A stretch of DNA of 44,720 bases, from the NCBI GenBank assembly GCA_903842235.1, contig CAIMLG010000277.1, forward strand, positions 1 through 44,720, in the 5' to 3' direction. The notes beneath the pieces were generated by a model, which had not been told where the DNA came from, made no database searches, and saw only the letters and a list, made by a program, of their open reading frames with translations. Made by a program: the position numbers and the translations under genes. The DNA comes from an uncultured Verrucomicrobia subdivision 3 bacterium. GTDB lineage: Bacteria > Verrucomicrobiota > Verrucomicrobiia > Limisphaerales > UBA11358. This document shows, piece by piece, positions 7,434 through 28,180 of this stretch (positions are counted from its first letter, which is position 1; every line of letters begins with the position of its first letter).

Positions 7434-8291
7434 TTAAACTCCGCTGAAGGCGGCAAAACCGCCGTCCACCGGGATCACCACGCCGGTCACAAAACCTGCG
7501 CCCTCATCGGACACCAGCCAGAGCAGCGTGCCGGTCAGGTCGCTGGCTGCGCCAAATTTGCCCATGGGGGTATGCGCCAAAATGGTGTTGGCGCGGGGCG
7601 TCCAGGAGCCGTCGGGCTTGGTGAGCAGGCTGCGGTTCTGGTCGGTTACAAAAAAGCCGGGGGCGATGCCGTTGACGCGCACGCCGACGCGGGAGAAATG
7701 CACCGCGAGCCATTGGGTGAAGTTGCTGACCGCCGCCTTGGCGCCGCTGTAGGCGGGAATTTTCGTGAGCGGACGAAACGCATTCATGGACGAGATATTG
7801 ATGACGACGCCCTTGCCTTTGCCGGCCATTTCGCGGGTGAACGCCTGGGTGGGCAGCAGGGTGCCGAGAAAGTTCAGGTTGAACACAAACTCGACGCCCT
7901 TCGGGTCGAGATCGTAAAAAGTGATCAAATCCTTGTTGGTTTTCAACAAATCTTCCGGGCGTAGATATTCGTGGCTGGTCGTGCCTTTGGGGTGGTTGCC
8001 GCCGGCGCCGTTGATGAGAATATCCACCGGGCCGAGTTCGCTTTTCACTTTTTCGTTGGCCGCCGCCAGGCTTTCCTTATCCAAAACATTGCACGCCACG
8101 CCGATGGCCGTGCCGCCGCCCTGGCGGACTTCTGCCGCCACAGCTTCGGCGGCTTCCAGTTTCAAATCCGCCACGGCGATGCGCGCGCCGCACGCGGAAA
8201 GCGCGCGGGCCATGGTGCTGCACAAGATGCCGCCGCCGCCGGTGACGACCGCGACTTGATCCTTCAGGTTGACGGTAAATGGAATATTCAT
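7434..8291 (-). CDS. SDR-family oxidoreductase, probable fructuronate reductase / D-mannonate oxidoreductase type
   Basis: The 285-residue classical short-chain dehydrogenase has a cofactor glycine loop TGGGGIL (17-23), NGAG (94-97), a Ser at 167/168, and YSGAK giving Y181 and K185. The GGNHPKGTTS segment after NGAG is, in my recollection, characteristic of the SDR group annotated as D-mannonate oxidoreductase, which reduces D-fructuronate to D-mannonate. A gluconate 5-dehydrogenase or related sugar-acid dehydrogenase remains possible. I chose ATG 8291 (MNIPFTVNLKDQ); the frame stays open upstream to 8411 but that extension is not family-like and would run close to the upstream gene. It sits 46 bp after the LarA-like gene in an operon with a KDG-type kinase, consistent with uronate or aldonate catabolism. 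Confidence 0.85.
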   Translation of the reverse strand: MNIPFTVNLKDQVAVVTGGGGILCSTMARALSACGARIAVADLKLEAAEAVAAEVRQGGGTAIGVACNVLDKESLAAANEKVKSELGPVDILINGAGGNHPKGTTSHEYLRPEDLLKTNKDLITFYDLDPKGVEFVFNLNFLGTLLPTQAFTREMAGKGKGVVINISSMNAFRPLTKIPAYSGAKAAVSNFTQWLAVHFSRVGVRVNGIAPGFFVTDQNRSLLTKPDGSWTPRANTILAHTPMGKFGAASDLTGTLLWLVSDEGAGFVTGVVIPVDGGFAAFSGV

Positions 8292-24334: not shown

Positions 24335-26785
24335 TCAGGCCCGCAGTTCTGCCTTCAAGTTTGTCTTCAACGTTTCCAAAACTTTGCCGTGGGCATTATT
24401 CACGTCCGCTTCCGTCAACGTCTTGTCGGCGGCGCGATAGGTGAACGCGTAAGCCAGGCTCTTTTGCCCGTCCGGCACGGACTTGCCCCGAAACACGTCG
24501 AACAGTTCGACAGATTCCAGATTCGCAGCCTTGGCTTGTTTCACGGCTTGCAACACGGCGTCGTGGGTCACGGCTTCCGGCACCAGCATGGCCACGTCGC
24601 GACGGCTGGACGGGAATTGCGGCAAGGCTTTGAACGCCTTGACCGGATTACGCTTAGCCAGCAGTTGGTCCAGGTTGAATTCCGCCAGGAAAACCGCGTC
24701 GCGGAGGTCGTATTTCTTGGCCAGCGTGGGCAGCAACTGGCCGAGTTCGCCCAGCGGCAGCTTGCCTCCGAGGGTGACGGCGGCGGATTCGAGGAAGAGC
24801 GAAGTGCTTCCCGCGCGCTTGCCGAACTGCGCGCCGCGCAGGCCGAATTGCTCAATGAATTCCTCAACCAGCCCCTTCAGATCGGCGGCGTCAGCCTTCG
24901 CATCGCGGTCATCGCCGCTCCAGAAATTCAGCGCCCGCTGGCCGGTGAGGGTGAGGGCGACGCTGCGATTCTCCTTGGTCTGACCGTTCACGCTGGAGAA
25001 CACCCGGCCGATTTCAAACAGCCCCACATCGTAATTCTTGCGGCTGACATTATGGCGCAGCGAGTGAATCAGGCCGGGCAAGAGGCTGGGCCGGAGCGCA
25101 TCCATGTCGCTGCTCAAAGGATTGGCCAGGGCGATGACTTCTTCGGGCGGATGGCTGCGGATTTCCGCTTTGCCAATCAGAGTCTGGCCTTGGGCCTCAT
25201 TTAAGCCGAGCCCGGTGAGAATGCGCCGGGCCTCGGCAATTTGATCGTAAACGGTGTCAAATTCATTGCTGCCGTGCTCACCCCGCGGCGGCGTGGACGG
25301 AATTTTTTCCACGCCATAGAGCCGGCCGACTTCCTCGATCAAATCTACTTCGCGCTTCAAATCCACGCGCCAGGTGGGCAGGCTGAAGGTGCATTCGCCG
25401 GGCTCCTGATGCGTGACCTTCAGGCCCATGCGGGAGAGGAAGCCGACTTGATCGGCATGGGAGATACCGATGCCCAGCAAGTCTTTGCACTTGGCGAAGT
25501 GTAAGGTGAGCGTCTTGGGCGGGGGAGGGGAGGGATAGCCGTCCACGACGCCGTCCACCAATTGCCCGCCCGCGGTTTCCAAAATCAATTGCGCAGCGCG
25601 CCGGCTCGCCCAGTCGCAGATGCCCACGTCCGCACCGCGTTCAAACCGGTAGCTGGATTCGCTGCGCAAACCGAGCTGCTTGCTGGTGCGGCGGATGTTC
25701 ACCGGCGCAAAATAGGCGCTCTCGATCAGCACATCCACCGTCTGGTCGTTGATCTCCGTGTTCGCGCCGCCCATGACGCCGGCGAGCGCGATGCCTTTCT
25801 GTTCGTCGCCAATCAACAGCATTTCGCTCGTCAACGTGCGCTCCTGATTGTCGAGCGTCTTGAATTTCTCACCGGCCGCGGCGCGGCGGACGACAATGGT
25901 CGGCTTGCCATCCGCGCTCTTGGCAATGAGATGAAAATCAAACGCGTGCAGCGGCTGGCCGCTTTCCATCATCACAAAATTGGTCACGTCCACGACGTTG
26001 CTGATGCTGCGGATGCCGACTTTTTCCAGCGTATCGCGCAACCACGCCGGGCTGGGCCCGATCTTCACGCCCTTGATGACGCGGGCGGTGTAGCGCGGGC
26101 AAAGCTCGGCGTCTTCGATGCGGCTCGCGACCAGTTCGCTGCTCGCGGGGACGCTCGCCTCACCAAGTTTGATTTCGGGAATTCTCAGCGGATTCCCCGT
26201 GAGCGCCGCGATTTCCCGCGCGATGCCGAGGACGCTGTTCAGGTCCGGCCGGTTCGGCGTGACTTCGAGATCATAAACGACATCGCTGCCGCTGCGGCCG
26301 AGATATTCGGCGAAGGGCTGGCCGACCTTGGCGTCCGTGCGCAGGATCAGCAGACCGTCTTCTTTTTTGTGGCCGATGGCTTCGGGATCGAGGAGCAGTT
26401 CCTCGTGCGAACACATCATGCCGTGTGACTCGACGCCGCGAAGCTTGCCGATCTTGATGGTGAACGGATCCTTGTCGCCAGGCTTCATGGGCAGCGACGC
26501 GCCGGGCAGGATGAGCGGCACTTTGTCGCCCGCCTTGAAATTCTGCGCGCCGCAGACGATCTGGCGTTCGCCCGTGCCTTCATTGACGCGGCAGACGGAG
26601 AGCTTGTCGGCGTTGGGATGCTTGTCGCGGGTGACGACCTGCGCCACGACGATGCCCTCGAAGGTGGCGGAAATCTTCTGCACGCCCTCGACTTCGAGAC
26701 CGAGCAGGGTGAGCCGCTCTGTCAATTCCTCGGACGACCAGTTGAAATCAACGTATTGTTTGAGCCAGTTAAGGGTGACTTTCAT
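24335..26785 (-). CDS. pheT: phenylalanyl-tRNA synthetase beta subunit
   Basis: The 816-residue subunit, of normal size for bacterial PheT, forms an alpha2-beta2 enzyme that charges tRNA-Phe. Domains in order: N-terminal B1 (MKVTLNWLKQYVDF), tRNA-binding OB fold at about 40-150 (VVAQVVTRDKHPNADKLSVCRVN, IVCGAQNFKAGDKVPLILPG), B3/B4 editing core (EVTPNRPDLNSVLGIAREIAAL, TNFVMMESGQPLHAFD), B5, catalytic-like B6/B7 (RPSLLPGLIHSLRHN), and C-terminal ferredoxin-fold anticodon-binding FDX-ACB (PQFPSSRRDVAMLVPE). A GC-rich interspersed repeat encodes ASVPASSE near residues 209-216. It is last in the rpmI-rplT-pheS-pheT run, after a small chimeric gene. Confidence 0.97.
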   Translation of the reverse strand: MKVTLNWLKQYVDFNWSSEELTERLTLLGLEVEGVQKISATFEGIVVAQVVTRDKHPNADKLSVCRVNEGTGERQIVCGAQNFKAGDKVPLILPGASLPMKPGDKDPFTIKIGKLRGVESHGMMCSHEELLLDPEAIGHKKEDGLLILRTDAKVGQPFAEYLGRSGSDVVYDLEVTPNRPDLNSVLGIAREIAALTGNPLRIPEIKLGEASVPASSELVASRIEDAELCPRYTARVIKGVKIGPSPAWLRDTLEKVGIRSISNVVDVTNFVMMESGQPLHAFDFHLIAKSADGKPTIVVRRAAAGEKFKTLDNQERTLTSEMLLIGDEQKGIALAGVMGGANTEINDQTVDVLIESAYFAPVNIRRTSKQLGLRSESSYRFERGADVGICDWASRRAAQLILETAGGQLVDGVVDGYPSPPPPKTLTLHFAKCKDLLGIGISHADQVGFLSRMGLKVTHQEPGECTFSLPTWRVDLKREVDLIEEVGRLYGVEKIPSTPPRGEHGSNEFDTVYDQIAEARRILTGLGLNEAQGQTLIGKAEIRSHPPEEVIALANPLSSDMDALRPSLLPGLIHSLRHNVSRKNYDVGLFEIGRVFSSVNGQTKENRSVALTLTGQRALNFWSGDDRDAKADAADLKGLVEEFIEQFGLRGAQFGKRAGSTSLFLESAAVTLGGKLPLGELGQLLPTLAKKYDLRDAVFLAEFNLDQLLAKRNPVKAFKALPQFPSSRRDVAMLVPEAVTHDAVLQAVKQAKAANLESVELFDVFRGKSVPDGQKSLAYAFTYRAADKTLTEADVNNAHGKVLETLKTNLKAELRA
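26141..26164 (-). repeat. GC-rich interspersed repeat copy 2 (in pheT)
   Basis: The 19-mer GCTCGCGGGGACGCTCGCC (26141-26159, plus strand) is identical to the copy in pabB. Here it is read on the opposite strand and encodes ASVPASS in PheT, so the same DNA word is tolerated in different frames of different genes. Confidence 0.8.
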
Positions 26786-26817
26786 TTGCTGAAATTTCTT
26801 TTAGTTCGAATGCCGGA

Positions 26818-26893
26818 TTACAATTGTTTCAAGAACCGCGCGTCATCTTCGTGGAAGAGGGGGATGTCGTTGCTGCCGTTGCGGACCATGGCG
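26818..26893 (-). repeat. diverged duplication of the pheS 3' end
   Basis: 76 bp matching 27113-27188 with 12 differences and no gaps by hand alignment, in the same orientation and frame, ending both genes at the stop codon. It is offset by 295 bp. Confidence 0.85.
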
Positions 26894-27105
26894 GTATCAA
26901 GCTGGCCGCGTTGACCATAGAGTTGTTGGAAAAGCTGGCGTTTGAATTCTTCCGGCGCAAGCCCGGCGGGCAGCGAGGCCAGCGCCATTTCACGCGCGGC
27001 TTCAAATGAACTCACTCCCATTATAAAGTATTCTTCCCCAGAGCGCGCCATAATCTTTTGCCGGAAAAGGTCAGCAATTTCTGGTGAAATGTCAGGCATG
27101 TTCAA
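26818..27105 (-). CDS. small conserved-type hypothetical protein with a PheS-derived C-terminal tail
   Basis: The 95-residue protein lies between pheS (7 bp upstream) and pheT (32 bp downstream). Residues 1-70 (ISPEIADLFRQKIMARSGEE, FIMGVSSFEAAREMALASLP, FKRQLFQQLYG) resemble small hypothetical proteins I associate with the pattern RSxEExxxMGxxMFDxAR; function unknown. The last 24 residues (AMVRNGSNDIPLF, HEDDARFLKQL) align with the PheS C-terminus (AMLRYGINDIRLF, YENDVRFLKQF). The underlying 76 bp (26818-26893) is about 84% identical to 27113-27188. The gene therefore looks like a small ORF fused to a duplicated pheS 3' end. ATG 27105 gives MNMPDISPEI. Confidence 0.75.
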   Translation of the reverse strand: MNMPDISPEIADLFRQKIMARSGEEYFIMGVSSFEAAREMALASLPAGLAPEEFKRQLFQQLYGQRGQLDTAMVRNGSNDIPLFHEDDARFLKQL

Positions 27106-27112
27106 TGCAATG

Positions 27113-28180
27113 TTAAAACTGTTTCAAGAACCGCACGTCGTTTTCGTAGAAGAGGCGGATATCATTGATGCCGTAGCGGAGCATGGCGATGCGTTCGATG
27201 CCGAAGCCGAACGCCCAGCCGGTCCAGACGGCGGGATCGTAGCCAACGGTCTCGAACACCTGCGGATGCACCATGCCGCAACCGGCGATCTCCAGCCAGT
27301 CCTTGCCCATCTTCTTGACGAGCGCGTTGGTGAAGTCAATCTCATAGCTTGGCTCGGTGTAGCTGAAATAGTGCGGGCGGAACCGAATCTTCACGTCGCT
27401 GCCCATGAGTTCGCGGAAGACGAATTCCACCGTGCCCTTGAGGTCGCCGACGGTGACGTTCTTGTCCACGTAAAGCCCCTCGATCTGGTGAAAGGTGGGA
27501 TTATGCGTGGCATCGGCGTTGTCGCGGCGATATACGCGTCCCGGCACGATGATGCGCACGGGCGGCGGCTGTTTTTCCATCACGCGGATTTGGACGGAAC
27601 TGGTATGAGTCCGCAATAATGAGGAACGTCCGCCCTCGCCCGCCATTGCCGCTGTCGCTGCTTCCCCAGGAGAGGGAGAAACTGCTCCCGCGTTGGTTGC
27701 AATATAAAAAGTGTCTTGGCTGTCACGCGCCGGGTGATCTGCCGGAGTATTCAGCGCATCGAAGCAATGATACTCGTCCTCGATCTCTGGTCCATCAGCG
27801 ACGGCGAAGCCGATCTTGCGGAACGCGCGGACGATGTCGTCGGTCACTTGGGTGAGCGGATGCAATTTGCCCAGCGTGCGGCGGCGTCCGGGCGCGGTGA
27901 AGTCGGTCGGTTCCTTCGGCAGGGCGGCTTTCAGCTCCAAGGCTTCGCGGCATGCGCCAAGGGCGGCTTCGAGCTCCACTTTGGCAGCGTTGATGAGTTT
28001 GCCGGCGGCGGGCTTTTCTTCCTTGGAGAGCGTGCCGAGCTGTTTCATTAGCGCGGTGAACTTGCCGTTTGGCCCGATCCAGGCGCCTTTGGTCTGTTCC
28101 AAGGCGGCGAGGTCGGCGGCGTTTTTAAACTCGGTCAAGGCCGTCTGTTTCAGTGGCTCAATATCGTTCAGAAATCCCAT
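27113..28180 (-). CDS. pheS: phenylalanyl-tRNA synthetase alpha subunit
   Basis: The 355-residue catalytic subunit has an N-terminal coiled coil (about 1-85), then HPLTQVTDDIVRAFRKIGF, GPEIEDEYHCFDALNTPADHPARDSQDTFY, motif 2 LLRTHTSSVQIR and VPGRVYRRDNADATHNPTFHQIEGLYVD, and motif 3 GWAFGFGIERIAMLRYGINDIR. I used ATG 28180 (MGFLNDIEPLKQ); the longer frame to 28402 would overlap rplT. Between DTFY (156-159) and LLRTHTS there is a ~25-residue Ala/Gly/Ser-rich insertion (163-187, NAGAVSPSPGEAATAAMAGE) absent from the usual family sequence. It is probably an in-frame repeat insertion in a surface loop near the active site entrance. Confidence 0.96.
   Translation of the reverse strand: MGFLNDIEPLKQTALTEFKNAADLAALEQTKGAWIGPNGKFTALMKQLGTLSKEEKPAAGKLINAAKVELEAALGACREALELKAALPKEPTDFTAPGRRRTLGKLHPLTQVTDDIVRAFRKIGFAVADGPEIEDEYHCFDALNTPADHPARDSQDTFYIATNAGAVSPSPGEAATAAMAGEGGRSSLLRTHTSSVQIRVMEKQPPPVRIIVPGRVYRRDNADATHNPTFHQIEGLYVDKNVTVGDLKGTVEFVFRELMGSDVKIRFRPHYFSYTEPSYEIDFTNALVKKMGKDWLEIAGCGMVHPQVFETVGYDPAVWTGWAFGFGIERIAMLRYGINDIRLFYENDVRFLKQF
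27620..27694 (-). repeat. in-frame insertion in pheS resembling an interspersed repeat
   Basis: The DNA encoding residues ~163-187 of PheS has the TCTCCCTCTCC...GGGCGAGGG character of GC-rich intergenic repeats and codes a low-complexity Ala/Gly/Pro/Ser stretch. Family PheS proteins go almost directly from DTFY to LLRTHTS. No second copy is in the window. Confidence 0.6.

Follow-up and report, generated by a model that had tools for sequence, protein, structure and literature searches.

Why does a small open reading frame (ORF) lying between pheS and pheT, within a PheRS operon, end in what reads as the C-terminus of PheS? The question arises from a contig of an uncultured Limisphaerales bacterium, of which we analysed a stretch of 44,720 nt (hereafter the window). 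The features that bear on it, given in the order in which they are read, from pheS to pheT, are the following:

27113..28180, minus strand: pheS, 355 aa, intact (ORF and tblastn against relatives)
27113..27188, minus strand: repeat copy 1, the functional pheS 3' end, 76 nt to the stop (blastn, 84% to copy 2)
27100..27112, minus strand: gap of 13 nt from the pheS stop to the ATG of the small gene (sequence)
26818..27105, minus strand: small ORF as listed, 95 codons from a TTG, with an ATG at 27099
26914..27099, minus strand: putative MenA1/Rv0078B-like antitoxin homologue, 62 codons (MPDIS...LYG), with homologues in 31 other Limisphaerales genomes
26894..26913, minus strand: joint sequence (QRGQLDT), 20 nt (alignment with G191, G194, G008 and L130)
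26818..26893, minus strand: repeat copy 2, read here as a stranded pheS 3' end (a stub), in-frame fusion to the antitoxin ORF
26786..26817, minus strand: 32-nt spacer, probably the one that first separated pheS from pheT (alignment with the spacer between tail and pheT in G006)
24335..26785, minus strand: pheT, 816 aa, intact (ORF and tblastn against relatives)

The answer that we favour, with a probability of roughly 0.7, is that an insertion where pheS meets pheT left the repeat as its scar and that the stub is the old end of pheS.

The direct repeat and the small ORF

Within the window, a BLASTN alignment pairs 26818-26893 with 27113-27188; it spans 76 nt, 64 of them identical, and has no gap (84%, E 6e-19). 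This bears out the claim of an earlier note on this DNA, made from the sequence alone, that the last 24 codons of the 95-codon gene are a diverged, in-frame copy of the pheS end. Both copies terminate at the stop codon of their respective ORFs and are read in the PheS frame (AMVRNGSNDIPLFHEDDARFLKQL and AMLRYGINDIRLFYENDVRFLKQF, each followed by the stop), with 8 of the 24 residues of the small-ORF copy changed relative to that of pheS. Counted from the TTG at 27105 the small ORF has 95 codons, and counted from the ATG at 27099, the start codon used by its homologues, it has 93; the conserved family part comprises the 62 residues from this ATG to the LYG at 26914, after which come the 20-nt joint and then the copy. 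Nothing else in the same genome is clearly homologous to the small ORF. Equivalents of this arrangement recur in many assemblies made independently of one another, so that it cannot be put down to a faulty assembly of a single genome. As a separate observation, pheS of the window displays at 27600-27690 an extra in-frame stretch (NAGAVSPSPGEAATAAMAGEGGRS) over GGAGAGGGAGAA-like sequence; a repeat of similar look lies inside pheT in L112 (13107-13168).

A family of putative antitoxins

Residues 1-62 define a family present in 32 of the 320 genomes of the order, its own genome included. The earlier note had taken the first ~70 residues for an independent conserved family: the family is real, and its conserved part is confined to the 62 residues. 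We aligned 22 other homologues and read the C-terminal ends of 30; these proteins are mostly 66-75 aa long and stop shortly past the LYG motif, typically in ...QPAPF. The note had asked whether orthologs lack the PheS tail: it is found in none of these 30 homologues, whether inside or outside the pheS-pheT locus, and the result that the note named as refuting thus did not turn up. One open frame, in L177, is longer than the other homologues, yet it too is without the PheS tail. The body of the antitoxin shows a dN/dS of 0.06-0.15 to four homologues, indicating long-term constraint.

In homologous loci the gene is often found directly after a MenT-like nucleotidyltransferase (NTase); this partner is absent beside the small gene in the window. 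One homologue matches the Pfam family PF18993 (Rv0078B-related antitoxin) with E 0.0017 but below the cut-off; the best homologue scores 18.7 bits against the 27.1 required, and no Pfam family is hit by the protein of the window. The best PDB match of the NTase is MenT1 (8an4, E 4e-4), and a PDB profile search with the small family returned nothing useful. On the strength of these sub-threshold profile matches the family looks like a set of MenA1-like antitoxins, a designation that we use as a supported lead rather than as established membership. MenA1, an antitoxin of 68 aa, can do without its C-terminal residues when it is overexpressed (PMC10435456). The likeness to the MenAT1 system (Rv0078A-Rv0078B; PMC10435456) lies in the combination of a ~67-aa, antitoxin-sized protein with an adjacent NTase resembling MenT1; the differences are that the NTase is upstream of the small gene here, as opposed to downstream in MenAT1, that the matches here fall below Pfam cut-offs, and that the window copy is solitary and tail-extended. 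The window antitoxin is probably a solitary relic whose NTase partner is missing; this putative antitoxin may still be able to neutralise a MenT-like toxin.

The second copy drifts, probably as a stranded end

When the two tails are compared with the commonest tail of the genus, the small-ORF copy shows 10 changes (8 nonsynonymous and 2 synonymous), and the pheS copy shows 2, both of them synonymous (0 nonsynonymous). With nonsynonymous and synonymous sites in a ratio of ~4:1, the 8 + 2 changes match the expectation for no constraint. The stub drifts neutrally, and it is unlikely that its product acts on PheT.

The 32-nt spacer on the pheT side aligns with the tail-pheT spacer of G006 (TCCGsCATT...CTAAAA...ATTTCrGCAA) with a score reached by 0 of 20,000 shuffles; the contig of G006 starts inside its tail, and the copy there cannot be proved to be that genome's own pheS end. 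Because the pheT-side spacer matches that of G006, the drifting copy would be the old pheS end and the small gene would have been inserted upstream of it. The polarity is best read as the small gene having landed ~76 nt inside pheS and having stranded the old end, and the direction implied by the earlier note, with the tail being fused or converted onto the gene, is probably wrong. The native end of the homologues, QPAPF-stop, is lost in the window ORF, and the alignment with G191, G194, G008 and L130 suggests that a native stop (TTC TGA) just before the joint disappeared through small changes. A parallel is found in G030 (L088:9447-9632), where a MazE-type antitoxin (PF04014, E 2e-6) enters a pheS stub in a different frame, its last ~11 residues thus coming from pheS DNA in that other frame.

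The pheS-pheT junction as a hotspot

Within this same Limisphaerales genus the distance from pheS to pheT varies from 12 bp to 8 kb, with empty sites in relatives where only 12, 45 and 53 bp part the two genes (G011, G069 and G004, respectively). The junction is a hotspot for addiction modules: its cargo includes HicAB-like and VapBC modules, an NTase-antitoxin pair, and a PIN-like protein with a 62-aa partner, and among restriction genes an XhoI-like R-M pair (RE PF04555, N6_N4_Mtase), Mrr and a type II enzyme. Ordinary genes are also found there, such as those for PAP2-like phosphatases and a carbonic anhydrase; the names PIN-like and PAP2-like were given by inspection, with no profile match. 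No pair of strains with and without the window's insertion was found, and hence we infer the insertion event.

Clear extra stubs, of either the pheS tail or the pheT head, are present in at least 14 of 43 genomes. Tail stubs occur in G000, G008, G009, G012, G022, G025, G030, G035, G062, G064 and G066, and head stubs in G001, G005, G012, G016, G025 and G035; beyond the genus such stubs are less frequent (L091/G103, L130/G229, L200/G198 and L123). To quantify this, 825 long ORFs from 81 loci (the window and 80 chosen by PheS similarity alone) were scanned for a same-strand copy, 45-125 nt long, of the ORF's own end within 8 kb. Such stubs accompany 10 of the 114 pheS/pheT ORFs as against 2 of the 711 others (Fisher P = 9e-8, from related genomes that are not fully independent), and the latter two cases are a PAP2-like cargo gene at the same place and mnmA.

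When gene order is compared among relatives, as the earlier note had proposed, the small gene appears in differing arrangements, with or without the NTase. The order in L130 is NTase-small gene-pheS tail, and in G191/G194 pheS is followed by the small gene without an NTase. In G008 (L033:5742-9146, minus strand) there is an array, VapB-VapC-tail-NTase-antitoxin-tail-XhoI-like RE-MTase-pheT, with pheS on another contig.

Where the stubs begin and end

Tail stubs end at the pheS stop, and for at least six cargos their inner edge lies at -72 to -76 nt (the window, HicAB, the PIN pair, the G022/G066 gene and G008 twice; G198 and G064 by eye); other stubs have inner edges at -30, -34, -49, -54, -84 and -90. 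Head stubs start at the pheT ATG and run for 50-107 nt, and the flanking repeats as a whole measure 76 nt in the window and 30-107 nt elsewhere. The clustering of edges at -72 to -76 has a scan P of ~0.006 under simple assumptions. A random illegitimate end would not give nearly the same joint base for at least six cargos, which points to an edge that is either sequence-directed or selected.

Cargo genes often stop 0-15 nt ahead of a tail stub. The R-M pair begins 4-13 nt past a pheS tail, real or stub (L078, L086, L033, L041 and L133), and its methylase lies directly before a pheT head, again real or stub (L033, L042, L086, L133, L041 and L078). This cassette keeps the adjoining tail before it and head after it even when other insertions part it from pheS or pheT, which suggests that later insertions landed in pheS and pheT and left ends on the older cargo. 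The stubs of G009 and G022 are closer to the tail of another subclade than to their own pheS, and thus stubs can travel with cargo. In G025, homology between the copies stops at the stop codon although they are 98.7% alike.

How the cassettes may have arrived

We propose that a short cassette with a MenA1-like antitoxin gene came to lie in the 3' end of pheS, ~76 nt before its stop. pheS would have retained a complete end upstream of the cassette, with the old end left as a 76-nt stub before pheT, and the antitoxin would later have lost its own stop by small changes, so as to read in frame into the stub and gain ~30 residues. Repeated insertions of addiction modules in the genus would have left the same pheS-tail and pheT-head stubs. 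As to the route, the incoming linear DNA may have come from a relative already bearing pheS-cargo or cargo-pheT, one of its ends entering pheS or pheT by homologous recombination and the other being joined illegitimately inside the gene end; the stubs would then abut the gene boundary because donor and recipient share only the gene. This one-ended combination of homologous and illegitimate joining is established for linear DNA (PMC3240628). By such a route each event would leave a single gene-end duplicate; the common -76 edge is not explained by it.

Two other accounts of the mechanism overlap with the insertion scar and do not exclude it. The first, which we hold as a tentative and on balance unlikely option, is site-specific: a trans-acting recombinase would insert non-autonomous cassettes at a core GCC/ATGCTC whose distance from the pheS end is 76 nt. 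Every cassette would bring along its own pheS end as the attachment site, so that the gene is restored. The shared inner edges of at least six cargos are consistent with this, as are a similar core (ACC/ATGCTC) near +77 in pheT, two pheT head stubs (G025 and G001) that end exactly at CACC/ATGCTC, and the stacked cassettes, each with a tail at its end. However, no recombinase is found among the intergenic cargo proteins scanned, the other tail edges given above and heads of ~+66 to +106 are used as well, only 2 of the ~8 pheT head edges checked fit the core, and mnmA has a similar stub without that core. A viral, phage or plasmid carrier of the tail was likewise sought: the pheS tail is absent from the viral contigs and phage collections searched and has a hit in a single plasmid record (Subdoligranulum). 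If such a recombination activity did exist, a new kind of addiction-gene cassette might have portable ends, formed by the final 76 bp of pheS and the initial ~80-100 bp of pheT; it would stack in arrays and deliver toxin-antitoxin and R-M genes to a defined base of an essential operon. We regard this idea as speculative and rather improbable.

The second account, doubtful in our estimation, is a translational relay, in which the tail copy is kept since the next gene is translated by putative coupling to the pheS stop. Read from the last Met (ATG, -72), the tail makes a 23-codon mini-ORF between the cargo stop and the next gene; the clustering of edges at the last PheS Met fits this, as do the cargo stops 0-15 nt before the stub and the R-M and NTase genes that begin 4-13 nt after it. 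Nevertheless, the start or stop is lost or an inner stop gained in the stubs of G030, G062, G031, L091 and G064, and the window stub changes as expected without constraint.

Less probable still is that the pheS end was duplicated in tandem where it stands, or that a small gene already downstream underwent gene conversion. Either would yield a direct repeat of adjacent sequence, but the abrupt end of homology at the stop codon in the 98.7% alike copies of G025, which also disfavours a tandem duplication followed by decay, speaks against them, as do the other-subclade stub types in G009 and G022 and the different arrangements of the small gene and other cargos among genomes. Finally, a functional fusion, with the PheS-like tail selected as the antitoxin's binding surface for PheT or PheRS, would suit the in-frame junction within the PheRS operon, but this reading and the interaction with PheT raised in the earlier note can be set aside as very improbable, given the 8 of 24 residues changed at an N:S ratio as for no constraint, the absence of the tail from all the homologues read, and the G030 antitoxin that enters its stub in another frame.

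Relation to known systems

Returning to the insertion scar, its closest counterpart is the insertion of R-M genes with long target duplication, reportedly described by Nobusato et al. in 2000 and Furuta et al. in 2010. R-M systems insert with target duplications of the order of 100 bp and without a transposase (PMC3874152, PMC3031569). The pattern at pheS-pheT resembles such insertion, focused on one essential gene pair: the cargo is of the R-M and toxin-antitoxin kind and has no transposase, direct repeats of the order of 100 bp flank it, and relatives have empty sites. It differs in that the repeats here abut the pheS stop or the pheT start, often with one common inner edge, and in that insertion keeps returning to a single pair of essential genes throughout a genus.

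Integrative elements such as e14 at icd and SCC at rlmH rebuild the target gene's 3' end. They share with this locus the targeting of a housekeeping gene's 3' end, a gene left whole, a second copy of the end left behind, and stacking; in contrast, here the scanned cargo has no recombinase, many edges vary, and a gene head is used as well as a gene tail. Homology-facilitated illegitimate recombination (PMC3240628) would likewise give one gene-end duplicate per insertion, but was shown in the laboratory with markers and not as a recurring source of operon cassettes, and predicts no shared joint position. The resemblance to integron gene cassettes lies in the look of an array. We found no report of this locus or pattern in the literature searched, which proves little with many journals outside its coverage.

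Read as scars, the series would show a way for toxin-antitoxin and restriction genes to move with no transposase involved, a legible piece of the adjoining essential gene staying behind after every insertion. Since the scars recur at a single gene pair, the older idea that genes insert with long target duplication can be put to the test there. The puzzling fusion ORF would likewise be explained without a new function, and it serves as a caution that an insertion scar can lie behind a short ORF whose end is a piece of a housekeeping protein.

Other repeats and rearrangements

Several further observations were made in the course of the comparison. The tail of mnmA, another housekeeping gene, shows the stub pattern too, being repeated after an inserted glutathione peroxidase gene (L076:7186-7251 and 7862-7927), with a weaker parallel at L088:1895-1945 and 2568-2618. 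Upstream of a PAP2-like phosphatase gene, which is cargo at the pheS-pheT locus, lies a 96-nt stub of that gene's start (L054:12967-13062 and 14075). In L052, L056, L063, L080 and L147, pheT is inverted and lies several kb from pheS. The rplT-pheS gap, upstream of pheS, is also variable (~2.6-4.4 kb) in L060, L061, L078 and L081, and is a possible second insertion spot.
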